Part shown: positions 3,233 through 52,359 of the stretch, piece after piece | How the letters are laid out: every line of letters begins with the position of its first letter | Numbering within the stretch: position 1 is the first letter of the stretch | The notes under the pieces: model-generated | The model's database searches: none | The model's input: only the letters and a program-made list of their open reading frames with translations | What the model was told of the DNA's origin: nothing | Made by a program: the position numbers and the translations under genes | Assembly (NCBI GenBank): GCA_013204605.1 | Contig: JABMNI010000052.1 | Location: 1 to 59,250, forward strand | Origin: Ignavibacteria bacterium | Lineage (GTDB): Bacteria; Bacteroidota; Ignavibacteria; Kapaibacteriales; Kapaibacteriaceae | DNA: 59,250 bases | Reading direction: 5' to 3'

Positions 3233-4396
3233 ATGATTACTACTGTTCGGGGAATAACTGTACTTGGTTCGACCGGCTCGATTGGTACTCAAACGCTAAA
3301 CGTAATTCAGCAGCACGCCAATCTATTTTCGCTGCGTTTCCTCACGTGCAACACCCGCGTTGAAGATTTAGCAAAACAAGTTGAAGCCTACAAACCTTAC
3401 GGCGTAGCAATTCGCGAAGAAGAAGCTTGGAAAAAATTTAAGCTACTCTGTCCGAATTTTTCAGGCCCAATTCTTTGTGGCGAAAAGGGGCTTTGTGAAG
3501 CAGCTTCCGATTCAGAAACGAATATTGTTATGAGCGCAATGGTTGGCTTTAGTGGAGTTGTACCAACCATGGCCGCAATTTCTTCCGGCAAAACAATTTG
3601 CCTAGCTAACAAAGAAACGCTAGTGTCGGCCGGTGAAATTATTACCTCCGCCGCACACAAACACAAAGCCCCCTTACTCGCCGTCGACTCTGAGCATTCG
3701 GCCATTGCGCAGTGTCTGGTGGGTGAAGATGTGAGCAGTGTTGAGCGAATAATTTTAACGGCATCAGGCGGACCCTTCAAAGATTTCACTGTTGAGCAGT
3801 TGAAAACCGTTACGCCTCAACAAGCGCTTCAACATCCGAATTGGGACATGGGCGCCAAGATTACCATTGATTGCGCCACGCTAATGAACAAGGGTTTTGA
3901 GGTGATTGAAGCCCGCTGGTTGTTCGGGTTGCACGCCGATCAAATTGACGTTGTGGTGCATCCGCAGTCGATAATCCACTCCATGGTGCAGTTTGTTGAT
4001 GGCTCATTAAAAGCACAACTCGGAGTGCCATCTATGTTGGTACCCATTCAATATGCGCTGCTGTATCCGCACCGCCTACCGCTGCAAGTGGATCGCGTGA
4101 ACTTCACTGATTTCCAAAATTTTACGTTCGAACCGGTAGACACTTCGCGATTTCCATGCCTGCAAATTGCGTATGATGTGATGAGCACCGGCGGGAACGC
4201 CCCCTGCATAGCAAATGCGGCCAACGAGATAGCTGTTCAGAATTTTTTGAAGGGGGCTATTGGATTTACCGATATCCCTAAGGTGATAGAATATTCACTG
4301 CTTCAAATGGAAGTGGTGTCTAATCCGTCATTGGCCGCCATTATTGAAACCGACATTGAAGCACGGCGCATAGCCGCATCTTGGAAGAAGCATTGA
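3233..4396 (+). CDS. dxr: 1-deoxy-D-xylulose 5-phosphate reductoisomerase
   Basis: Second enzyme of the MEP isoprenoid pathway: it rearranges and reduces DXP to 2-C-methyl-D-erythritol 4-phosphate with NADPH and a divalent metal. It has 387 residues, near the family norm. The nucleotide-binding GSTGSIG is at 12-18 and NKETLVSAGE starts at N126. Metal ligands are D152 and E154 (DSEHSA) and E223 (MNKGFE). SGGPF and HPQSIIHSM are also present. It sits between rng and rseP with almost no spacing (3 bp and 1 bp), the common dxr-rseP pairing. The AAG GGG GCT codons for LKGAIGF (4250-4258) carry one copy of the dispersed AGGGGGCT motif. Confidence 0.97.
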   Translation: MITTVRGITVLGSTGSIGTQTLNVIQQHANLFSLRFLTCNTRVEDLAKQVEAYKPYGVAIREEEAWKKFKLLCPNFSGPILCGEKGLCEAASDSETNIVMSAMVGFSGVVPTMAAISSGKTICLANKETLVSAGEIITSAAHKHKAPLLAVDSEHSAIAQCLVGEDVSSVERIILTASGGPFKDFTVEQLKTVTPQQALQHPNWDMGAKITIDCATLMNKGFEVIEARWLFGLHADQIDVVVHPQSIIHSMVQFVDGSLKAQLGVPSMLVPIQYALLYPHRLPLQVDRVNFTDFQNFTFEPVDTSRFPCLQIAYDVMSTGGNAPCIANAANEIAVQNFLKGAIGFTDIPKVIEYSLLQMEVVSNPSLAAIIETDIEARRIAASWKKH

Positions 4397-13481: not shown

Positions 13482-13551
13482 TTGCATAGCACAGTACAGG
13501 TGATTGCATTGCTCAGTCGCAGCTAATCTCCCAGCGGTTGTAGTTTTGGCG

Positions 13552-15747
13552 ATGCGCCGCTTCCACGAATTTTTATTCTACTGCATTGCCCTGCTTGTTT
13601 TCTGTCCCGTGGGCAGCGTTGCTCAAGACTTGGAAGGCATTATCAATTTCTACTCGGGCGTCTCATTTGTAGACCATTGCAAGAACAACATTACCGTTCT
13701 CGACACCGCCGGATTCGCCGAAGGCGATGCAGTCATCCTCATTCAAATGAAGGGGGCTACGGTAGATTCCACGGGCAACATCGTAGACTTTGGAGCTGCC
13801 GGTCGGTTTGAAAAAAATATAATCGATTCAATCCGTGGCAACGTTTTCACCTTTCGGTTCACTATGCTGCATGACTACACTGAATTGGGCTCTGTGCAAA
13901 TTGTTTCGATGCCTTCGTACAAGTCTGCTCGTGTGGTGAAGCCCCTTACATGTAAACCTTGGGACGGAATATCGGGTGGCGTGCTGGCGTTTGCAGTAGC
14001 AGATTCGATGATCTTGAACGCAGACATTGATGTGTCGGGAAGGGGCTTTAGGGGCGATACTGTGTTGGCTTCGGGCGAAGGCATTGCGGGCATTACCAAC
14101 GTTCCGGCAACAAGATGGGCCAACGGCGGAGGCTATTCACCGCAGGTTGCTCAAGGCGGCAGTGGTGGCACGGGAATGGGGTCGGGCGGCGGCGGACACC
14201 ACGGCTGCGGCGGAGAGGGCGTGGAGAGCTGTACAAAAATTTCACGGCGGGTGCCCGGCGGACAAGAGATTCGGTACGATGCCGGAGCTAATTGGATTTT
14301 TATGGGTGGCGCCGGCGGGTCGGGAACACAACCATCGCTCACTTCCGGTAGCGCGCCCACGATTCTTGCCGGTGGCAACGGCGGCGGTATCTTAATCTTG
14401 AACGTGCCGGTAATAATTGGCGACGGAAATGCCACCATACATTCAAATGGAGGGCAGGGTACCAGGATTAACCCAAGTGGTAAACTACCCGGCGCGATTC
14501 CTGCAGGCGGTGGTGCCGGTGGTGCGTTAATGGTCACAGCTTACATTATTCGGTACGTGCCTTTTTTATCGGCGCATGGCGGAGATGCAACGCAAACGCC
14601 GTGGGACACACTGCAGCCGATTGCCGGCAGCGGCGGTGGCGGAACTATTCGATTGGGTACCACATCGCCCCTTAACCTAAATTTTGGGCATTACGATGCG
14701 GGCAAGCCAAGTGGGCAGAATTGTGTGGGCACCAAGGGGTGCTCGGGGAGGGTGTATTACAACAACGGACTCAACATTGCAACGCAGACGCACCGCCGAA
14801 GATACGTGCTAAACAAGGCCGACACCGCAATGTGCGTGGGCGATACCGTGGCGCTATGGGCGCGCACCGTGGGTAGGGTAACGTGGTATGTTGGCGCCAA
14901 TCCAATTTGTGATTCCTGCGACACCGCGCTAGTTAGTCCACAGCAAACCACGCAGTACTGGTACCGCACCGTCTACTCTGACTTCTGCGAAGATTCCGGA
15001 AGTGTTGAAGTAGTAGTGTATGACCTGCCGCAGCCGAATTTGCAGACGCCCGATCCAATTTGCATTCGCGACAGCACACTGCTCAGCGCCGCGCCGGGCA
15101 TGGCCAAGTACCGCTGGAGCACCGGCGATACCACGCAGTCATTCTACGCCCGCACCGTGGGCTGGTACCACGTTACCGTCACCAACACCAACGGCTGCAG
15201 CCAAACAGATTCGGTATTTGTTTCTGTGCTCCCCAAACGCATTTTGGATATTATTGAGTTAAGGGGCTTGACCGAACTCACACTTCCATCTGTGTATCCA
15301 AATGAATTGAGCAACGCAATGTTTACCATTCAAAACACATTTACCGTACCGGCAATTGTGCGCAATGTGGAACTCGCCAGCAACACACAATTCTCAGTGC
15401 CACTTCCGCAATTTCCGTTTACGGTAAACGGCGGGCAAACGCAACAGGTGTGGGTGTACGCATCGAATGAAATTCCGGGAACGTACCGCGACACTATAAC
15501 CATCATCGAACCATGCGGCGAAACCTTGGTGCCAGTTGCGTTTACCGTTTTCGAAACGCCGTGGATTTCTAAGTGCAACGTGCGAGTAACATCGCAAGGT
15601 GAAATGGAAGATTTTCTTGAGCAATTGCGCGCAAAGAAAATTGAATTTGTGGTGTTCAATTTGGTGGGTGAAAAGTGTTTACCGCCCTACATGCGAGGCA
15701 CCTACATTGTGCGCACCAGCAAATCGGTTACCCTACTGTCCTTTTAA
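13552..15747 (+). CDS. Secreted glycine-rich protein with Ig/PKD-like domains
   Basis: A 731-residue exported protein starting at the ATG at 13552, which opens a signal peptide (hydrophobic run ending near GSVAQ); the longer frame from 13504 adds an unlikely N-terminus. The mature part begins with a beta-rich domain, then a long glycine-rich stretch (about residues 190-390, many GGSGG and GGGG runs). Two Ig/PKD-like modules with paired Cys follow (about 425-590), then an Ig-like domain and a short T9SS-like tail (VVFNLVGEK ... RGTYIVRT). The final codons TLLSF and the stop lie inside a 42-bp copy of the 3' end of the asparagine synthase gene found 3.65 kb further on. That copy is a repeat bounding an inserted segment. 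Role: probably a surface or matrix protein. Confidence 0.72.
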   Translation: MRRFHEFLFYCIALLVFCPVGSVAQDLEGIINFYSGVSFVDHCKNNITVLDTAGFAEGDAVILIQMKGATVDSTGNIVDFGAAGRFEKNIIDSIRGNVFTFRFTMLHDYTELGSVQIVSMPSYKSARVVKPLTCKPWDGISGGVLAFAVADSMILNADIDVSGRGFRGDTVLASGEGIAGITNVPATRWANGGGYSPQVAQGGSGGTGMGSGGGGHHGCGGEGVESCTKISRRVPGGQEIRYDAGANWIFMGGAGGSGTQPSLTSGSAPTILAGGNGGGILILNVPVIIGDGNATIHSNGGQGTRINPSGKLPGAIPAGGGAGGALMVTAYIIRYVPFLSAHGGDATQTPWDTLQPIAGSGGGGTIRLGTTSPLNLNFGHYDAGKPSGQNCVGTKGCSGRVYYNNGLNIATQTHRRRYVLNKADTAMCVGDTVALWARTVGRVTWYVGANPICDSCDTALVSPQQTTQYWYRTVYSDFCEDSGSVEVVVYDLPQPNLQTPDPICIRDSTLLSAAPGMAKYRWSTGDTTQSFYARTVGWYHVTVTNTNGCSQTDSVFVSVLPKRILDIIELRGLTELTLPSVYPNELSNAMFTIQNTFTVPAIVRNVELASNTQFSVPLPQFPFTVNGGQTQQVWVYASNEIPGTYRDTITIIEPCGETLVPVAFTVFETPWISKCNVRVTSQGEMEDFLEQLRAKKIEFVVFNLVGEKCLPPYMRGTYIVRTSKSVTLLSF

Positions 15748-15768
15748 GAACTCTCGTAGCATGGCCAG
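15727..15768 (+). repeat. Left copy of a 42-bp direct repeat derived from the asnB 3' end
   Basis: This segment matches 19377-19418 at 39 of 42 positions, at an offset of exactly 3,650 bp. Read on the minus strand it encodes LAMLREFLKGQ and a stop, the C-terminus of the asparagine synthase whose intact gene ends at 19383. On the plus strand it supplies the last codons and stop of the glycine-rich secreted protein. Its position suggests a target-site-like duplication flanking an inserted 3.6 kb cassette. Confidence 0.85.
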
Positions 15769-15776
15769 AAATTTAA

Positions 15777-18428
15777 CTAATTACTCACCAGCACCTTCAT
15801 TGTGTTTGAGCCTTTTTCGGTTTCTAGGACAAGTAGGAACACTCCGCTTTGAAGACCAATTGTGCTGAAATCGAATTCGTGACGCTGTGCACTTGGTTGA
15901 GTAGAAATAGTTTGCCGTAGTAGAGTGCTCAGATCAACTTCAACACCACCGTAAAGATTGTAGAGCCTTAGCGACGACCAAACACCAGCAAGGTTGAGGT
16001 TGTTTACTCTTACTCTAAGTTGTCCGACGGTAGGTGTGGGATACGCATACACTGTGGTAACACGCGTAGGTTCGAACGGTTCATCTACTCCAGTAGCAGC
16101 AGGAACAAAATAGTACACACCATCGCTGGTAGAAGCGTACACCAACCCCATAGTATCAATGGCCAGATCGTTGATGAATGCGCCGAGCAAGTCCTGACCG
16201 CCCAAGGTGCGCCAGGTTGCCCCGGCATCGAAACTTTCAATCACACCGTCCTCCATGGTTGCGACCAGCACGCGTCCGTCGGGATGACTTATTATCTCGC
16301 GGCGTCCGGTGAACCCCGGCCGCGACCGCGTTTCAAGGTACACGTCTTGCCAAGTTTTACCTCCGTTGGTGGAGCGTATCAAACGACCGTCGGACATGGA
16401 GTAGGGGCGTCTTGGTTGTCCGGCCGAAGGAAATCTGATTATTTTCCCAACCGTAGCCAATACTGTATCAGAGCTTGGCAGACGATGCATGAACCACACA
16501 CACAGGTTTGCGTCCAGGCCATCCTTGCGTTTCGTCCAGGTCACGCCCGCATCTGTTGAGAGATAGAACCCTCCGTTGTAAAGAGCAATTTCGCCAGTAT
16601 CAGTTTGCACATAACTCCCTCGAAATCCTGCCAATAAATCACCGCTAGACAACTTCACAATACCGGAACACGAAACAAGATTACCCTCTTTGTTACGGGG
16701 AAGCCCCTTGCCGCCAATAATCCAAGTTGCCCCTGCGTTGCGCGAAATGTACAGCGAATCTCGTGTGGCAAAGTGCGTTGAGCTGTCCAACATGATATAA
16801 CTGCTAATCGACGCCCACACTATGTCAGTACCGGACGGACTGATTACTTCCGACGAATCGGATGAATTTGAGTATCGAAGGATATCCAGTCCATGATTGT
16901 AAAGCGTTGTACCGGGTGTTACCTCAACAACCCCTTGCTGATGTGAACAAATACTTGAATTGTCGTAATAGGCCTCAGATGACAGGAATGGATTAGGTGA
17001 TACGTACGCACCGTCGTTTATATTTATGGCCGTGGTTGTTTGCCACGTAGCGTATTGAGGATTCCATTTTACTATTGCTGACGTGTAGGTACACACCCCG
17101 TCTACATTTAAACTGTCGACCGGGTAAATTTGGTCAATCACTACCGGACGCTGACCATAATAAACCGACTTGCTAGAATTGATCAATTCTGGCACAACAC
17201 CTGTTTGTAGCCAAGTAGCACCATCGTCCGATGAACGCATCAATCCATACCCAGTCCCCGCAACATACACGCCATTATCATACGCGAGGGATCTGATACT
17301 GAGAGAATTACCACGAATTTCGAGTGGTGTAAACACTTCGGCAGATAGGAATCCCAATTTACCTATGTACGGTAACGAGTAAGAGCCGTCGGCGTGGTGT
17401 GTAATGTGCCCTTTATCGTACGGTTGGAGTCTACTAAACCGAGTAAGCGGTAAACCGACCGTCCTATCCCACCAGGTTTTCCCACCATCAGTAGTTGTTG
17501 CAATATGCGCGGATTCAAACCACAGCGTAACATGGTTCAAGACATTCTTTTGGGCATGGGTAACAGTAAAGTTGCCTCTATCATTTCCGCCGCCAAGCAC
17601 TAATGAAGAATTCACAAAGGTCAGCGAATCTAAAAATTTCCATGTGGTACCGTTGTTTAGTGAAATGCCAATTTTTGTGCTTGCATCCGAATACCCTTTT
17701 CTACTAATTCCACAGATAATATTGTTGGAATCCAAATAGCAGTATGTTTGAGTATACCTTGGTAGGCGCACTTCAATTAACTCTGATGAGCCGGACCGAA
17801 GTTCAAGCCAGGTGACTAAGGAGTCCGCGATTCCGGAACGGAACGCTACTATGCCGGCGCTAGGCTCGGTAAATCTGCGGTCGGTTGCGTCTGCCTGAAT
17901 TCTTTTATTATTGGAAAGCTTCCAAGTATCACCGTAATCTGCTGATATATAGGTGGTGTCACGGTCAAAAAAGCGCACTATCAGCATAGAATCCACAATG
18001 CCAACGGAAGATATATCCCTGAATTCTACAGGAGTGATAAATTTCCATTCTTTTTCTTCTGGCAGGTATCTAGCCAACCTATCCTCTCCCGTTCTGGATT
18101 TATCTGACCAAAATGCATACAGTTTCCCGATAGATACTCCTAATTTTAGGTGTCCTGAGACTGTCCACAAAGGATGGAAAGGCAACGCCGACCACTGCAT
18201 ACCCTGTTTGTCCCCACTGATAACAACACGGCCACACATGACTTTAAATTCCCCACTGGTATTGGCACTCAGATTTACTCTAACCGAAGCATTTGAATTG
18301 TCCCCTTCATAAGTGCTCGCGTGAAAGCCCGCAATAACCGGAGGTATCAACTTCCACTGTTGTGCTGTTGCAACCGTAGGTACGATAAGAATCATTACGG
18401 CTAGAACAGAGTACACCGCTATTTTCAT
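15777..18428 (-). CDS. Secreted BNR/Asp-box propeller protein with T9SS sorting domain
   Basis: An 883-residue exported protein. The ATG at 18428 starts a clean signal peptide (hydrophobic core ending ATAQQ) with GGGAG upstream; the frame open to 18581 is rejected. At least six Asp-box motifs of the S-x-D-x-G-x-T-W type are visible (TTDGGKTW, SSDDGATW, SRNAGATW, STDAGVTW, STNGGKTW, SFDAGATW), as in sialidase-like and photosystem assembly-like propellers. No sialidase catalytic Arg triad or FRIP motif is recognisable, so enzyme activity is not claimed. The last 90 residues (AYPTPTVGQL ... LYNLYGG ... SGVFLLVLET) form a T9SS C-terminal domain. It lies within the 3.65 kb cassette bounded by direct repeats, downstream of a terminator that follows the cysteine-rich gene. 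Confidence 0.78.
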   Translation of the reverse strand: MKIAVYSVLAVMILIVPTVATAQQWKLIPPVIAGFHASTYEGDNSNASVRVNLSANTSGEFKVMCGRVVISGDKQGMQWSALPFHPLWTVSGHLKLGVSIGKLYAFWSDKSRTGEDRLARYLPEEKEWKFITPVEFRDISSVGIVDSMLIVRFFDRDTTYISADYGDTWKLSNNKRIQADATDRRFTEPSAGIVAFRSGIADSLVTWLELRSGSSELIEVRLPRYTQTYCYLDSNNIICGISRKGYSDASTKIGISLNNGTTWKFLDSLTFVNSSLVLGGGNDRGNFTVTHAQKNVLNHVTLWFESAHIATTTDGGKTWWDRTVGLPLTRFSRLQPYDKGHITHHADGSYSLPYIGKLGFLSAEVFTPLEIRGNSLSIRSLAYDNGVYVAGTGYGLMRSSDDGATWLQTGVVPELINSSKSVYYGQRPVVIDQIYPVDSLNVDGVCTYTSAIVKWNPQYATWQTTTAININDGAYVSPNPFLSSEAYYDNSSICSHQQGVVEVTPGTTLYNHGLDILRYSNSSDSSEVISPSGTDIVWASISSYIMLDSSTHFATRDSLYISRNAGATWIIGGKGLPRNKEGNLVSCSGIVKLSSGDLLAGFRGSYVQTDTGEIALYNGGFYLSTDAGVTWTKRKDGLDANLCVWFMHRLPSSDTVLATVGKIIRFPSAGQPRRPYSMSDGRLIRSTNGGKTWQDVYLETRSRPGFTGRREIISHPDGRVLVATMEDGVIESFDAGATWRTLGGQDLLGAFINDLAIDTMGLVYASTSDGVYYFVPAATGVDEPFEPTRVTTVYAYPTPTVGQLRVRVNNLNLAGVWSSLRLYNLYGGVEVDLSTLLRQTISTQPSAQRHEFDFSTIGLQSGVFLLVLETEKGSNTMKVLVSN

Positions 18429-18455
18429 GGAGAGTCTCCCATAAATTTGGTCGTT

Positions 18456-18488
18456 GCAAAAAAGGGCGAGGAGGCGGTGCCTCCTCGC
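18456..18488 (-). terminator. Rho-independent terminator after the cysteine-rich protein gene
   Basis: GCGAGGAGGC (18466-18475) pairs perfectly with GCCTCCTCGC (18479-18488) around a three-base loop. On the minus strand the hairpin is followed by CCC and a run of six T. It stands 16 bases past the stop of the minus-strand gene at 18505-19128 and before the start of the next minus-strand gene. The two genes are therefore probably separate transcripts or only partly coupled. Confidence 0.85.
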
Positions 18489-18504
18489 AATGAAGTTTAA
18501 AATT

Positions 18505-19128
18505 TTAATGACAAGTAGGGCAGGTGCCAGGAACATAATATTGGCAGAGTTCCTCAAGGCAACTACCTTGGCAGTTTGCATTCGGTGAGGTGCAGTCCGC
18601 TCGCATCAGGATGTTCATGTCTCCATCCGGTCTGTTCTTGCAGAACCTCCACTGCCTGATGCAACACTCGGAATTTGGACACCGAACCAAACACGGCCCT
18701 AACCGTTGGACACAGCGGGGCATGGCTATAACCCAACAGTAATAGTTAGGTTCTTCGTCACAATAGGGTATACTACTACGCAAGCCCAATGCATCTCCTG
18801 ACAAAGGATCCAAAACACAAAATACCGCCTTGAGAATCTTTTGGTTGTTCGGCGGCAAGGGAATTCCCGTGGCACAGACTTTCTTGACCCCAGTGAAGGA
18901 ATTAACGCCGTACCCATCGTTGCATGGTGCGATTGTGCTTGGCGGTAAATAGTTGATGTGACACACCGTAATATCAACGTCATAGTTTACGCTGTCTATA
19001 CAGATTGTCCTGCTTATAACGGTGTCAGTGGCACCTTCCGGACAATCGCACAAAGATGACTGGGCGAACGCCTTCCCACCACAGATGAAAAGTAAAAGTA
19101 GAAGCGTAGCGTAATGTTTACGCCACAT
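18505..19128 (-). CDS. Secreted cysteine-rich protein of unknown function
   Basis: A 207-residue protein I do not recognise. It has a typical signal peptide (MWRKHY followed by a run of Leu, ending KAFAQ). The mature part holds more than twenty Cys, many in pairs such as CDC, CCIR and CPTC at the C-terminus, with no membrane span after the signal. Disulfide-stabilised exposure outside the cell is likely. It has no obvious T9SS tail. The start at 19128 has no Shine-Dalgarno within the normal window. Instead a run of ten G lies 18 bases upstream, and a 39-codon ORF with a good ribosome binding site overlaps the start by 11 bases. It lies in the repeat-bounded cassette with the Asp-box protein. 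Confidence 0.7.
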   Translation of the reverse strand: MWRKHYATLLLLLFICGGKAFAQSSLCDCPEGATDTVISRTICIDSVNYDVDITVCHINYLPPSTIAPCNDGYGVNSFTGVKKVCATGIPLPPNNQKILKAVFCVLDPLSGDALGLRSSIPYCDEEPNYYCWVIAMPRCVQRLGPCLVRCPNSECCIRQWRFCKNRPDGDMNILMRADCTSPNANCQGSCLEELCQYYVPGTCPTCH

Positions 19129-19237
19129 GGATGCTATGTGAGGAGACCCCCCCCCCTTGAAGGTTGAGCGACATAACCAGTGCAGGTTGTGACCTATCTA
19201 GGCCATTAGTATAACGCACAGCGTTTGCTGTTTTCAT
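19118..19237 (-). CDS. Possible 39-residue leader ORF spanning a G10 tract
   Basis: A small ORF begins with ATG at 19237, preceded by AGGGA about 8 bases upstream, and runs MKTANAVRYTNG... to a TAA at 19118-19120. The G10 tract lies in it, read as three Gly codons plus one base. With nine or twelve G the frame would join the downstream cysteine-rich protein without a stop. At ten G it ends just inside that gene, which could allow translational coupling. Whether it is translated is unknown; the case rests on the binding site, the position and the mononucleotide run. Confidence 0.35.
   Translation of the reverse strand: MKTANAVRYTNGLDRSQPALVMSLNLQGGGVSSHSIHVA
19147..19156. repeat. Homopolymer run of ten C (G10 on the minus strand)
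   Basis: Ten consecutive C on the plus strand stand 18 bases before the start codon of the minus-strand cysteine-rich secreted protein. Runs of this length are prone to slipped-strand mispairing in bacteria, and surface-protein genes are the usual place for such phase-variable tracts. Assembly error in the homopolymer length is also possible. Confidence 0.8.
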
Positions 19238-19321
19238 AACGATAATCCCTGAAAAATGGATGAAGGTAAGTTAGTACGTAATAGTACTTAATCCCTAACG
19301 TACGAAAATCAAATGAATCAG

Positions 19322-19329
19322 CAAAGATA
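19322..19329 (-). promoter_or_regulatory. Candidate -7 element (TATCTTTG) for the cysteine-rich protein transcript
   Basis: On the minus strand TATCTTTG fits the TAnnTTTG -7 consensus. It lies about 85 bases before the small leader ORF and 194 bases before the cysteine-rich protein start, which would give a long leader. A TTTG lies further upstream but at 26 bases instead of about 19-21. The same sequence occurs before ffs and murA. The gap from 19129 to 19382 also holds an imperfect GTAC-rich inverted repeat near 19280-19315 but no other gene. Confidence 0.35.
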
Positions 19330-19376
19330 AGAAATGCTTTAGCTGTTTTCCCCGACAAAGCAGCACCCCCAATTCA

Positions 19377-19418
19377 GTTACGCTACTGTCCTTTTAAGAA
19401 CTCTCGCAGCATTGCCAG
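19377..19418 (+). repeat. Right copy of the 42-bp direct repeat (genuine asnB 3' end)
   Basis: This is the intact 3' end of the asparagine synthase gene plus a few bases beyond its stop. It matches 15727-15768 with three mismatches, 3,650 bp away in the same orientation. If the intervening segment were removed, the glycine-rich protein gene and asnB would converge with a 15-bp overlap of their 3' ends. That resembles the 17- and 20-bp convergent overlaps seen elsewhere in this window. Confidence 0.85.
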
Positions 19419-21215
19419 TCGCCACACAAACAGCGCGTGTTGGTCGTTGCCGGCGCGATACTCCGCCACTAGTTTTTGCACCGCCTGCGTATCTACAAAA
19501 TCTGAAATCTGATTCCAGTTTCCGTCAAGTGTGTGTTTCAACGCGCCACGCAACCACACGCTATGACCGGGGGTGATGAAGCCCGTTTTGTCCTTGCGGT
19601 CGAGCACTTCATCCGGCACTATCCCTCGCATTGCTGCACGTAAAACGCGTTTCGTTTCGCCACGATGAACCTTGTGCGAATTGGGCATAGCAAAACATAG
19701 TTCAACCAATCTGTGGTCGAGAAACGGCACTCTACTTTCAATACTGTGCGCCATGGAATTCAGATCTTCGGTATGCAACAACGTTGGCAGCAACGTAACG
19801 TGTACTAGGTTGTGCAAGAACGCATTTAACTTGCTGCCAGAAGGCATCTCCACATGCAAAGGAACGTTGCTAGCAGAAGCATTCATTACCCACGGATACG
19901 TACGCGCTAACTCTAACCGATACAATTGCGGCTCATCTCGCACAGCCGTAAGCACACTTTTTGCAAGCACATCTATTTTTCGTTTAGTGCTGTACCCCTG
20001 ACGCTTACTATGGGCGTTCCACTCCGCAATAGCACCTACTGCATTGCCCCCTTTCAACAAATCAGCAATCACGCGGTACATGGAGTGCATGTAGCCACCC
20101 ATGATTTCATCGGAGCCTTGACCGTCCAACACCACCTTCACGCCGTGCTGCGCGGCGAGTTGCATAACAAAGTATTGCGAAACGTAGCTCGATGATGGCA
20201 GCGGCGCATCCATGATGCCCACAATGTTGTGCAGCACTTCGGCCACATCGTTATCAGTAGGGGAGATGTAGAAGTCGTTGATGGTGGGGTAGCGCTGCAA
20301 AACGTGATTGATGTACGGACGCTCATCCACGTTATTTTTGCCGGTGTAAAATGCCGTAAAAGTTTTTACATCGTGCTCGGCTGTTTGCGATGCAAGAACG
20401 CTGGCAATAGAAGTGGAATCTAAACCACCACTCAGACAAACACCCATGGCCACATCGCGCCGCGCCGTGAGCTGTACGGAATTGATAAACAGTTCGCGGA
20501 ACGCTTCTACGCTTTCTTGAAAGGGGGCTTCGTGTTGCGCCGTTGAAAGTGTTGCGTAATGCGTAATGGAAATTTTGTTGTTGCGCCACACAAGGTTGTG
20601 CGCAGCGGGAAGTGATTTTATGCACTCAAAGTAGGTTTCTTCCCAGTGGTGCATCCAGCCGAGGTAGAGGCCGCGGACAACTTGCTGCTCGTTTATCGTG
20701 TTTACGAACAGCGGAGATTGCTTGACAGATTTTATCTCGCTCGCAAAGTAGAACCGACCATTTTCTTCGAGATAGTGAAACGGTTTTATGCCAAACCTAT
20801 CACGCGAGCAGAAAAGTTCTTGAGAGGTGGGATTCCAAATTGCCAATGCCCACATTCCGATAAAATGATCCACACAGTGGTGTCCCCATCGGTCGTACGC
20901 CGCCAATACCACCTCTGTATCTCCGGCAGTGGTAAACGTATATCCATCACGCTGAAGTTCTTCTCGCAATTCAAGGTAGTTGTATATCTCACCATTAAAC
21001 GTCATGGTGTTTTTGCGGTACTCCATGGGTTGGTGGGAAGCTGCCGAGAGGTCAATAATGCTCAGTCTGTTGTGACCCAACCACGTAGCCCCCTGCCCCC
21101 AAACGCCGCGATTGTCGGGTCCACGGTGACGCGACACCTCCAACATTTTCTGTCCGATATTCCGAAGATCATCAGTTGAAAGTCTGGCATCAATTATTCC
21201 TGCTATTCCGCACAT
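19383..21215 (-). CDS. asnB: Asparagine synthase (glutamine-hydrolysing)
   Basis: A 610-residue class II amidotransferase that makes asparagine from aspartate, glutamine and ATP; homologues in glycan clusters may amidate sugar acids. The start was set at 21215 so that Cys2 (MCGIAG) is the N-terminal nucleophile after Met removal; the frame open to 21419 adds an implausible leader. The glutaminase domain (about 1-200) has RHRGPDN, LSIIDLS and FNGEIYN; the synthase domain has the ATP-binding SGGLDSTS. Length is typical. Divergent from it are a heparinase-like protein and a flippase, which suggests a role in polysaccharide making. Its last 36 bases are copied at 15732-15767. Confidence 0.9.
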   Translation of the reverse strand: MCGIAGIIDARLSTDDLRNIGQKMLEVSRHRGPDNRGVWGQGATWLGHNRLSIIDLSAASHQPMEYRKNTMTFNGEIYNYLELREELQRDGYTFTTAGDTEVVLAAYDRWGHHCVDHFIGMWALAIWNPTSQELFCSRDRFGIKPFHYLEENGRFYFASEIKSVKQSPLFVNTINEQQVVRGLYLGWMHHWEETYFECIKSLPAAHNLVWRNNKISITHYATLSTAQHEAPFQESVEAFRELFINSVQLTARRDVAMGVCLSGGLDSTSIASVLASQTAEHDVKTFTAFYTGKNNVDERPYINHVLQRYPTINDFYISPTDNDVAEVLHNIVGIMDAPLPSSSYVSQYFVMQLAAQHGVKVVLDGQGSDEIMGGYMHSMYRVIADLLKGGNAVGAIAEWNAHSKRQGYSTKRKIDVLAKSVLTAVRDEPQLYRLELARTYPWVMNASASNVPLHVEMPSGSKLNAFLHNLVHVTLLPTLLHTEDLNSMAHSIESRVPFLDHRLVELCFAMPNSHKVHRGETKRVLRAAMRGIVPDEVLDRKDKTGFITPGHSVWLRGALKHTLDGNWNQISDFVDTQAVQKLVAEYRAGNDQHALFVWRLAMLREFLKGQ

Positions 21216-35306: not shown

Positions 35307-36556
35307 AAATTCGGATGTGGAGTATAACTGAATGTCGCGCGGTGTTTGAGCGAGTTGGGCTTGTAGCCTTGGTATTTGCAAGCGTGGTGCTTGTCGGTTG
35401 CAACTCCGAAAAGTCGGAGCCTACAACAGAACTTCAGAGTGATAGCTCAAGCGCAGTTGCTGCAAAAGATTCGGAGAAACGTTCTAAGGCATTTGATAGG
35501 GGTGAAGACACAACAAAGTTTGATATAACAGATTCAACGATTACGTTAAAGAATGACCGATTCCCAAATCCATCAGGTAGAGTAATCAACATTATGGTTA
35601 CCGGCGTCGACTCCCGCTTGGGCGACAATATGGCCCACGCCGACGCTAACCATCTACTGAGATTCTTCGTCGATTCTGGGTGCGTTGAAATCATTTCACT
35701 TCCGCGCGACACATACTTCGATGCTGGATTCGAAGATTCGACAGGATTGAATAAACTCACCAACGTGCGCGCTAATCGGGGGCGAACAAAGTATTTAGCG
35801 GCAATCGCGGAGATATGCGGAGTTCCAAAAATCGATTACTGGGTTGAGTTTGGATTTTCGCAAGCCATTGGTTTGTTGGAATTGTTGGGGTACCGAGACA
35901 ATGCTTCTTCTACACTTCGAGTGTTGAGATCCAGGCAGGCGTTTAGCGCCGGTGATTTCCAACGAGTGTACAATCAGGGTCAGTTCATGCGCCAAGCTAT
36001 CTTGAGAAATTTCCACAACATGCAGAACATTATTGGCGATCTTGCCGTGCGAGCGGCGCTCATGATGGTAGAAACAAATCTGACGTATGCCGTGTGCGAC
36101 GACATTACAACACAACTTGCGGAGCACGGATTTAAAAACGATCCTACTCGGATTTGGGTGCGCATAAAGCCCGCAATGGTTACACGAATGAAGGTGTATG
36201 AATTCGATTCGTCGAGCGTGAATGAAATCAACCGACAAATTGCGCACCGCGTAACAAGGTTGGGTTTGGATAGTGTTCAGATTACCGAAGAGACGTATGA
36301 GCGACGGCTGAGCAAATTAATCGAAAAGGCGGCCACAGATAGCGCTAAGTCACCAAAATCCGTGATACGCGCTCTAAAGCGTCCATTTGAGCAACGTGCA
36401 TGGCTGCAGGTTTCAAATTTGCCGCAGCGAAAAATTTACCGCGACCGGTTGTGCGGATTGTTAACCACATCATACAAACGATTGAAAGATTCAAAGTCAA
36501 TCGAAACAATTCAGAAGTATCTCGAAATGGAAAACAAGGTTATCGAAGGTAGGTAG
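35303..36556 (+). CDS. LytR-CpsA-Psr (LCP) family protein, probable lipoprotein
   Basis: A 417-residue envelope protein. The ATG at 35303 overlaps the mazG stop and starts a signal sequence ending in a lipobox-like VLVGC at about residue 33; the longer frame from 35276 is rejected. The LCP domain (about 95-270) shows NIMVTGVDSRLGD, HADANHLLRFFV, IISLPRDTYFD, LNKLTNVRANRG and VEFGFSQAIGLLELLG. These include the Arg and Asp residues that bind polyprenyl-pyrophosphate in relatives. LCP enzymes attach glycopolymers to peptidoglycan or other acceptors. Its 3' end overlaps the opposite-strand envC-like gene by 17 bp. It may attach products of the glycan genes in this window, but no direct link is visible. 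Confidence 0.85.
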   Translation: MKIRMWSITECRAVFERVGLVALVFASVVLVGCNSEKSEPTTELQSDSSSAVAAKDSEKRSKAFDRGEDTTKFDITDSTITLKNDRFPNPSGRVINIMVTGVDSRLGDNMAHADANHLLRFFVDSGCVEIISLPRDTYFDAGFEDSTGLNKLTNVRANRGRTKYLAAIAEICGVPKIDYWVEFGFSQAIGLLELLGYRDNASSTLRVLRSRQAFSAGDFQRVYNQGQFMRQAILRNFHNMQNIIGDLAVRAALMMVETNLTYAVCDDITTQLAEHGFKNDPTRIWVRIKPAMVTRMKVYEFDSSSVNEINRQIAHRVTRLGLDSVQITEETYERRLSKLIEKAATDSAKSPKSVIRALKRPFEQRAWLQVSNLPQRKIYRDRLCGLLTTSYKRLKDSKSIETIQKYLEMENKVIEGR

Positions 36557-50224: not shown

Positions 50225-52359
50225 TGGGTATAAAGAAGTGTCTCGCTATTTTATTGTTGACTTCTGCATTTGTTGTCCCACTAAAATCGCAGTGGTGGTT
50301 GGGTGGAAATTTGAACGACGTGATGTTAACCCAACTTGGAATTTCTGCAAGCGTTGGGTTGATTAATCATGGCGCCTCATTCACACTGCCGTATGCGCCT
50401 ACGTGCTGCAAAGAATACACTGCCGCAAGTTCAATCGGACCCTCAGCATCTGTATTTCTTCGTCAGGAGATTATTAAGCCCCTTCGCATTCAGTTAAGAG
50501 GCTCATACATTCCTCAAAATGGATTGTTCGAAACCGACGAGACGCTACTGCTTTCGAATTCGGTGAACGGAATTTCAACGCATGCGTTGGATGTGAAACT
50601 GGGGTGGCTTGGGGCTGAGTTGTTGCTTGATCTCAACGTAGCCGGCGGATTTAGGGTTATTGCGGGGATGAACGCTGGGACGTTTTTGAGTCCTACGTTT
50701 TCGCAAAAGGAAACGCTAAAAAGCCCTGCAACGGGTACGTTCGAGAATGGACAACGAGTTCGAAATGAATCGACCGACATTGCACTTCAAGATGCCAGCG
50801 GACTTAAATTGGGAATCGTTGGCGGCGTTGGGTACGACATTCCGCTCACGAAAAACCATTCGGTCGTTTTAACACCAGAATTTCTGTACACAGTTGGATT
50901 AAAAGATGTGGTAGAGGGGGCTAATTGGAAAACTACCTCGATTCGTGCCGGTGCTTCGATAGCATTTGCATTAAATGCACCCGAGCCTCCATTACCAATT
51001 GAAAAGAAGCAAATACTTATAGTTGATTCGGTGCACGTGGTGGCTTTGCCAAGCGAGCCGTATCGTCGTGTTGAGGGTTTTGTTACATCAGTTACAGATA
51101 CCAATGTAGTTAGTGACGTGGTGTGGATTGTAACAACTGACTCGCGCACAGATACCGTGCACTCGCCGGCACTTCCCAAAATTAATGCTCGCATAGCAGT
51201 TCGAAGTGTTTCTTCATCAGGTGCTGCATCGGATGTTTTTACAATGAATGTTAGTACGCAGTTTGTTGCCGAAGCACTACCAATATTGCCGGTTATATTT
51301 TTTGATCCACAGGCTGTGAGTTTATCCTTTAGATATAATCAGATTTCCACGCCTTCGCAATTTGATGCAGATGCTATTCCGGCACGTACAACGGCGGTGC
51401 ACCGAGAAGTGTTGAACGTAATTGGACAAAGGATGGCCGAGCAAACTAATTCTACCATTCGTTTGCGCGGAACGGCCGATCCAACTACTGAAAATTCCGA
51501 CTGTGGATTGGCAACGAAACGTGCCGAAGCCGTGAAAGGCTACCTTGTGCGCACGTGGGGGATAAGTGCAGATCGGATAATCGTACTTGAGGGATCGGGG
51601 CAGTGCGCCCCTGAACGTCCAACGCGTCAACCTAGTGAAGAAGGATTTTCAGAAAACCGGCGCGTGGACATCGAAACTGACGACCTACCTTTAATGGGTC
51701 CGGTGCGCAAACGACGTTTCAACGAAGCACGCACGATTGATCCACCACAACTTGTATTCGACCCAGCTGGTAGCAGCACGCAATACGTGACCGACTATAA
51801 GATTACGGCCACTACCGAAGGCACAGTGTTGATTTCCGATGGCGGCAAGGGAAGCCCCCTTAAAAAAACATACGATGTAACGATTGATATGGCGGAAAAA
51901 TTATCGTTAGGTGCACCGGTTCAGGTGAACCTCACCTTGAACGCGCTACAGGGAGTAACTGAAACAGCTACGGCTAAGATTCAGGTGAAAAAGGACACGC
52001 TGAAAACAGAAATTGAGCGCCTAACACTCACGCTGTTCAATGTGGCCAGCGATGCTATTACACCTGTTTCAGAACAGGCCATAAAGCATTTCGTAGAAGA
52101 CGTCCCGGCTGGCAGTACGGTTGTGGTAAGGGGCTTTGCAGACATGTTAGGGAATGCGGATTTTAACAAAAAATTGTCGGCATCGCGCGCGCAATCTGTG
52201 TGTACGGCAATTCGCAAATACCTAACAAAACGTGTTGACCTGCAATGCAACGAGGTTGCAACAGATCGATTCCCACCAGGGATTGATTCGTATAAAACGC
52301 CAGAAGAGCGGTTCTTATCACGCACGGTGCAAATCGAGATTAAGAAAGATCGGAAGTGA
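50221..52359 (+). CDS. Outer-membrane protein with two OmpA-like domains
   Basis: A 712-residue exported protein with a signal peptide ending near LKSQW. The N-terminal part (about 20-255) looks like an outer-membrane beta-barrel of eight or so strands with many Gly and aromatic residues, ending ...AGASIAFALNAPEPPLP. A linker and an Ig-like segment follow. Two OmpA/MotB peptidoglycan-binding-like domains are recognisable: about 375-490 (LRGTADPTTENSDCGLATKRAEAVKGYL ... SENRRVDIE) and about 610-710 (VRGFADMLGNADFNKKLSASRAQSVC ... SRTVQIEI). Having two is unusual. Translation is coupled with the WD40 protein. It may anchor that protein to the cell wall. Its 3' end overlaps the opposite-strand CDF gene by 20 bp. 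Confidence 0.82.
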   Translation: MMGIKKCLAILLLTSAFVVPLKSQWWLGGNLNDVMLTQLGISASVGLINHGASFTLPYAPTCCKEYTAASSIGPSASVFLRQEIIKPLRIQLRGSYIPQNGLFETDETLLLSNSVNGISTHALDVKLGWLGAELLLDLNVAGGFRVIAGMNAGTFLSPTFSQKETLKSPATGTFENGQRVRNESTDIALQDASGLKLGIVGGVGYDIPLTKNHSVVLTPEFLYTVGLKDVVEGANWKTTSIRAGASIAFALNAPEPPLPIEKKQILIVDSVHVVALPSEPYRRVEGFVTSVTDTNVVSDVVWIVTTDSRTDTVHSPALPKINARIAVRSVSSSGAASDVFTMNVSTQFVAEALPILPVIFFDPQAVSLSFRYNQISTPSQFDADAIPARTTAVHREVLNVIGQRMAEQTNSTIRLRGTADPTTENSDCGLATKRAEAVKGYLVRTWGISADRIIVLEGSGQCAPERPTRQPSEEGFSENRRVDIETDDLPLMGPVRKRRFNEARTIDPPQLVFDPAGSSTQYVTDYKITATTEGTVLISDGGKGSPLKKTYDVTIDMAEKLSLGAPVQVNLTLNALQGVTETATAKIQVKKDTLKTEIERLTLTLFNVASDAITPVSEQAIKHFVEDVPAGSTVVVRGFADMLGNADFNKKLSASRAQSVCTAIRKYLTKRVDLQCNEVATDRFPPGIDSYKTPEERFLSRTVQIEIKKDRK

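Follow-up and report, generated by a model that had tools for sequence, protein, structure and literature searches.

How does a pair of ordinary genes, with no recombinase between its borders, come to lie between two copies of its neighbours' ends? The question arises at the asparagine synthase locus of a Kapaibacteria-type MAG (genome G000), a draft assembly in 86 contigs. The stretch of DNA analyzed here, referred to as the window, is contig 47, covered over 59,250 nucleotides.

The repeat pair at the asnB locus

Positions 15713-15768 and 19363-19418 of the window form a direct repeat in the same orientation, with 49 of 56 bases identical. A sequence-only reading of this DNA had noticed the core of the repeat (15727-15768 and 19377-19418, 39 of 42 identical, same orientation), which is confirmed and extends to the longer match. 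Identity drops off sharply outside these limits, to 3/20 and 6/20 past the two ends. The 24-nt centre occurs twice in the 2.69-Mb genome, both times at the asnB locus. The repeat is far above chance level: it scores 35, and of 600 random, similarly sized intervals in the sequence analyzed, 3 had flanking direct repeats scoring at least 20.

Each copy combines the ends of two genes. The stop of the glycine-rich protein gene lies at 15747 and that of asnB at 19383; the overlap that they would share is 15733-15747, 15 bp that have the same sequence in both copies. The gene ends at the two repeats, and the 15-bp overlap left on removal of the cassette, had been read correctly beforehand, and two other convergent overlaps cited with them (36540-36556 and 52340-52359) are both real. 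In the left copy the glycine-rich gene has its native end, and 36 bp duplicate the asnB 3' end as dead sequence; in the right copy the asnB 3' end is native, and 20 bp of glycine-rich gene end are dead. Neither copy is assigned to a strand. In the right copy, the 20 non-coding bases beyond the asnB stop match the end of the glycine-rich gene at 15 positions (p ~4e-6). Because the glycine-rich end is thus present past the asnB stop, the duplicated unit is the entire overlapping junction and not the asnB end alone. The left copy carries the glycine-rich stop together with GCATGGCCAG, as in the relative G011, and the asnB copy carries GCATTGCCAG instead; the left repeat is the native junction.

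The cassette and its flanking genes

The inserted cassette (15769-19362, minus strand) comprises a 234-bp upstream region, two genes, and 8 bp after the stop of the second. Its left neighbour is the gene for a glycine-rich, AgmC-N-like protein (ORF 13504-15747, plus strand, first ATG at about 13552), the last codons of which lie inside the left repeat; the protein matches NCBIfam NF047640 with E 1.6e-25, under that model's cut-off. The right neighbour is the asparagine synthase gene asnB (19383-21215, minus strand; 610 aa, Pfam PF00733 and PF13537), whose orthologues within the family are 63-68% identical.

The first cassette gene (18505-19128, minus strand) encodes a cysteine-rich protein of 207 aa that is predicted to be secreted. 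No Pfam or NCBIfam family matched it, and 11 Cys are invariant across 20 relatives. The structural model is confident (pLDDT 88.7) and displays a compact, β-rich fold. Foldseek returned no match at E <0.1 and the best VIA-align Z was 4.6; for the modeled protein, the fold searches establish neither a known nor a new fold. Ten consecutive C (read as G from the coding strand) lie at 19147-19156, about 20 bp upstream of the gene start, and variation in the length of this tract could switch expression.

The second gene (15777-18428, minus strand) encodes an Asp-box (BNR) tandem β-propeller protein of about 884 aa, with a signal peptide and a C-terminus resembling the T9SS type A sorting domain. 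It matches Pfam PF02012 (E 4.9e-12). Against the TIGR04183 sorting domain it scores 20.3 bits with a cut-off of 23, and three relatives score above that cut-off (26-27.5 bits). The AF2 model has a pLDDT of 78, and its Foldseek matches are GH74 enzymes and sensor propellers; the protein is predicted to consist of tandem β-propellers like those of GH74 enzymes and sensor domains. A terminator-like hairpin (18466-18488, minus strand; 10 pairs, then a T run) separates the two genes. It is strong, and would leave the cysteine-rich gene the more strongly expressed of the two.

The searches of ORFs, Pfam, and NCBIfam found no recombinase, transposase, or integrase between the repeats, where the cysteine-rich and Asp-box genes are the only genes. 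The cassette has no terminal inverted repeat: the best 12-nt match is 8/12, and shuffled sequences do as well. Its G+C content is 0.471, compared with 0.474 for the window, and since it equals that of the genome, base composition gives no hint of a foreign donor. Viral contigs searched with both window proteins, and plasmids searched with the cysteine-rich protein, contained no relatives. The cassette likely supplies a new variant of a multigene surface-protein family.

The joined genes in relatives

Those relatives of the asnB locus that carry a name are MAGs designated Ignavibacteria or Candidatus Kapaibacterium. In four genomes of the family the orthologue of the glycine-rich gene is convergent with asnB and the cassette is absent. 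The two gene ends overlap or nearly do so in G011 and G004, and a gap of about 0.2 kb or less separates them in G002 and G008. These genomes are family-level relatives, with asnB 63-68% identical, and the junction was compared gene by gene, not base by base. The cassette-free convergent genes indicate that the joined convergent pair is the ancestral state. The window cassette is therefore an insertion, and the sequence that it duplicated is the overlap in which the glycine-rich gene and asnB converge. An insertion that duplicated the overlap and kept both gene ends was what the sequence-only reading had envisaged, and the four cassette-free genomes support it; the empty sites that it had suggested looking for were found at family level, with the two genes side by side.

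Related cassettes in other genomes

A profile of the cysteine-rich protein yields 58 matches in 15 of 23 family genomes. Outside G008, a T9SS-type gene of about 850 codons comes next after nearly all of these genes. Together, the cysteine-rich gene and its T9SS partner appear to constitute an unnamed two-gene secreted-protein unit that is multicopy across this bacterial family. Such pairs commonly form tandem arrays (G004, G000:C81). In G008, unlike the rest of the family, about ten tandem cysteine-rich genes lie without a T9SS partner (L117, C24, 5572-14148). The window's own genome contains the nearest relatives of the cassette, but their large protein is only ~43% identical, so no donor copy was identified.

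Several of these pairs are likewise bracketed by copies of a neighbouring sequence. In G013, the fusA terminator (26 nt) occurs as a perfect repeat before and after the pair, and these are its only two copies genome-wide. In G001, the terminator directly after tRNA-Asn is repeated around a pair (40/43) and has no further copy in that genome; the duplication does not include the tRNA. In G010, the 3' end of the adjacent methyltransferase-like gene is found again as a repeat of 128 nt (125/128). On contig 36 of G000, the 3' end of a helicase gene, the following promoter, and a start codon are repeated around the second of two pairs (104/114 in the main part), and the bracketed pair is unrelated in sequence to the neighbouring one. 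The neighbour names helicase, methyltransferase, and katG are a reading of the protein sequences, not a database result. Further candidates are single T9SS genes in G000:C1 (24 nt, perfect) and G010:C85 (~500 bp).

Repeats around the pairs measure 26, 43, 56, and 128 nt, and that around a single T9SS gene 24 nt; their sequences are all unrelated, and the window repeat (56 nt) recurs around none of the other pairs. Inspection by eye of the inner borders of nine cassettes flagged for flanking repeats revealed no common sequence. The search for sister cassettes proposed in the sequence-only reading was therefore answered in part: many cassettes carry the same two genes, and none of them carries the window's terminal repeat.

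Two of these loci bear on the timing and placement of the insertions. At the locus in G007 that corresponds to that of G010, about 165 bp of the cassette are left. The G010 duplication is 98% identical, compared with ~77-80% across the G010/G007 split, which makes the repeat younger than the split and the cassette older. The duplication may thus have arisen, or have been homogenised, after insertion, and it need not be one event with the first insertion. Sequence downstream of fusA is strongly divergent among family genomes (loci L198-L218), and this variability leaves no clean empty site for the G013 case. T9SS genes or pairs sit downstream of fusA in G013, G004, and possibly G009, and this region may be an insertion hotspot.

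Mechanism of insertion

We consider it probable that the cysteine-rich/Asp-box cassette was inserted with a target duplication of about 56 bp, by capture during repair or replication, and we infer that no recombinase chose the site. Break capture or template switching would be the most likely route, with one-sided recombination with incoming DNA second. The event would begin with a break or gap that has two overlapping ends, and cassette DNA would be captured during repair or replication. Either long staggered ends would be filled in, or template switching would return to a point upstream of its departure point; the target would be copied twice, with foreign or ectopic DNA between the copies. 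Purifying selection would retain those events whose duplication spared both neighbour genes.

This last step bears directly on the gene ends. With a 15-bp gene overlap, an insertion without duplication damages a gene and would be selected against, so that both ends are restored without any att logic. As only an overlap-duplicating insertion spares both genes, the outcome would resemble integration at an att site. As far as the tests reach, classical transposition and site-specific integration are excluded by the variable lengths of the duplications (24 to at least 128 nt), by their unrelated sequences, and by the lack of enzymes or characteristic ends.

The alternative that fares best, though we regard it as unlikely, is a one-sided, Campbell-type event in which linear or repeat-excised circular DNA from a cassette-bearing strain recombined homologously in the asnB end and doubled it. 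Such an event would account for the neighbour duplication with no need of a recombinase; both homology-assisted illegitimate recombination and the re-insertion of circles have been documented as models, and a repeat younger than the presence of the cassette, as in G010, accords with it. However, it presupposes a strain with the cassette already at the site and leaves the first insertion unexplained. A repeat of 24-26 nt, such as the fusA terminator, is also short for homologous recombination, and the repeat sequence is different at each locus.

Quite improbable in our view is a machinery acting in trans, a transposase or target-primed reverse transcription, that made long staggered cuts into which the cassette was inserted. 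Target duplications do flank non-autonomous units, and the two-gene units recur in several family genomes. Nevertheless, no terminal inverted repeat and no terminal sequence common to the cassettes was seen, and the duplication varies from 24 to ~128 nt or more where such machinery would be expected to leave a constant length. Relatives of the window proteins are also absent from the viral contigs, and those of the cysteine-rich protein from the plasmids.

The sequence-only reading had favoured att-type integration, which would require site-specific insertion at a gene 3' end by an integrase supplied in trans. The position of the cassettes at gene 3' ends, the restoration of both ends, and the one case directly downstream of a tRNA gene fit this picture. 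Yet the cassette has no integrase, the repeats at different loci have no core in common and vary in length between 26 nt and 128 nt or more, the window repeat is found only twice in the genome, and the tRNA is left single in the tRNA case. With no recombinase, a unique terminal repeat, and sister cassettes whose unrelated repeats copy their own neighbours, the proposal is not supported, and we judge it highly improbable.

It is no more credible that a unit of gene end plus cassette was duplicated in tandem and one cassette copy then lost. Arrays of pairs are common (G004, G000:C81), and the katG 3' end repeat of G007:C5 was set aside as an insertion since a tandem duplication ending in katG fits it better. 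At the window locus, however, the second copy abuts the glycine-rich gene at its native end, and a piece of that gene is contained in the right copy, which a tandem duplication starting from asnB and the cassette would not supply unless the target were already duplicated; moreover, the G000:C36 pairs that share a repeat are unrelated in sequence. Finally, the chance of a fortuitous match or an assembly artefact is negligible, for although the assembly is a draft in many contigs, the copies differ at 7 of 56 positions and so are not one assembly path entered twice, the match lies well beyond chance expectation, and the joined genes are present in relatives.

Comparison with known insertions

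The uptake of single genes by bacteria, where neither transposons nor integrases nor flanking homology take part, is still poorly explained. For restriction-modification genes, the event called insertion with long target duplication has been on record for about 25 years, and Nobusato et al. 2000 (Gene 259:99, PMID 11163967) is reportedly its source. As described in PMC1643837 and PMC3031569 for Helicobacter pylori, restriction-modification genes are inserted with direct copies of the native target on both sides, which are long and variable. Cutting by the restriction enzyme has been proposed as the cause of those insertions, according to the account given in PMC11708052.

The insertion at the asnB locus has the anatomy of these cases. 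The window cassette is bracketed by direct repeats of its native target (49/56, asnB and glycine-rich gene ends), the target genes are joined without the insert in G011, G004, G002, and G008 (at family level, not base-exact), and length and sequence vary between sites; the anatomy agrees in every feature tested. In contrast to the Helicobacter pylori cases, the cargo is a T9SS surface-protein pair, the cassette contains no restriction gene, and the phylum is another. Cargo and lineage appear new for a known but rarely reported kind of event.

Three other systems share part of this anatomy. Transposed genes of Arabidopsis are single genes between genic direct repeats of ~30-550 bp (Woodhouse et al. 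2010, PMC2869330). The repeats often occur in the orthologous region of a relative lacking the gene and are enriched over untransposed control genes; parental sites are sometimes known, and the authors favour circle excision and re-insertion by recombination (PMC2869330). Genic direct repeats around moved genes are likewise seen here, but Arabidopsis is a eukaryote for which some parental sites are known. In Dup-IS481-Dup of Pseudomonas fluorescens SBW25, an element was captured exactly at a new duplication junction with no normal target-site duplication, and this was explained as insertion into an existing break (PMC11708052). That duplication spans ~60 kb and the insert is an IS, whereas the cassettes here are an ordinary gene pair with duplications of tens to hundreds of bp. 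In homology-facilitated illegitimate recombination (cited in PMC2884548), foreign DNA integrates via one homologous and one illegitimate junction. This process needs donor homology to the site, and no donor allele was identified for the window cassette.

Surface-protein cassettes that bear the same signature and contain no restriction enzyme would suggest that the enzyme is unnecessary and that host repair or replication is enough. The cassette family also offers numerous independent, countable events on which to measure how long the duplications are, which targets are preferred, and how old each event is.

Frequency of flanking repeats

Flanking repeats were counted gene by gene with fixed flanks and a fixed score, the comparison group being other genes of 900 bp or longer. 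They bracketed 9 of 28 pairs, leaving 19 without one, and 3 of 35 other T9SS genes, but none of the 366 genes in the comparison group. After removal of the window, tandem paralogues, and simple repeats, 3/27 pairs remained compared with 0/594 other genes (p = 7e-5), and the other T9SS genes combined gave 2/56 (p = 0.007). The pairs show a clear effect and the other T9SS genes a weak one. In a second sample, which took in 761 kb of the complete genome G004, there were no pairs, and repeats flanked 0/21 T9SS genes and 0/228 other genes; an extension to T9SS genes generally did not hold there. Other genes at these loci are mostly conserved, and the contrast may therefore reflect recent acquisition and not a special T9SS cargo. 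It is a rather doubtful further step that the cysteine-rich and T9SS pair is a dedicated, recombinase-free mobile cassette of Kapaibacteria that spreads to gene 3' ends, duplicates tens to hundreds of bp of target, and renews the surface repertoire as integron cassettes do, with host repair taking over the role of the integrase.

Among the flagged cases, L113, L137, L127, L106, and L140 represent tandem paralogues or else simple or array repeats, and about half of the nine flagged pairs may be of this kind. The repeats of L106, L140, and L189 were set aside as insertion signatures, being simple or array repeats. L119 was set aside as possibly a dispersed repeat, and L041 as a contig-edge case. 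At L041 (G010:C16), a perfect 127-nt repeat (1-127 and 3838-3964) lies at the contig edge, with a T9SS gene between it and a methyltransferase fragment that has no N-terminal part; this is perhaps a very young insertion, or else an assembly overlap. We note that L139 (G017) and L140 (G009), counted as different species, nonetheless share an identical 829-aa T9SS protein and flanking repeats of a 29-bp type. L133 (G008:C8, 2659-6773) is a CRISPR-like array with a repeat of ~29 nt (ATGTCACCCGCACACGCGGGGATGAACCG).

In an unbiased 1.4-Mb scan, most non-coding direct repeats 3-4 kb apart bracket genes of the cassette type. The exceptions include a DinD-like gene in G000:C16 (L172, 16290-17623), which lies at 16613-17467 between direct repeats of 83 nt (89%) and may represent an insertion of this kind whose cargo is not T9SS. 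Finally, CT runs occupy the signal-peptide region of two secreted cysteine-rich genes at L110 (G000:C36, 9397-9430 and 12680-12710); the number of CT units sets the reading frame, which makes phase variation likely.
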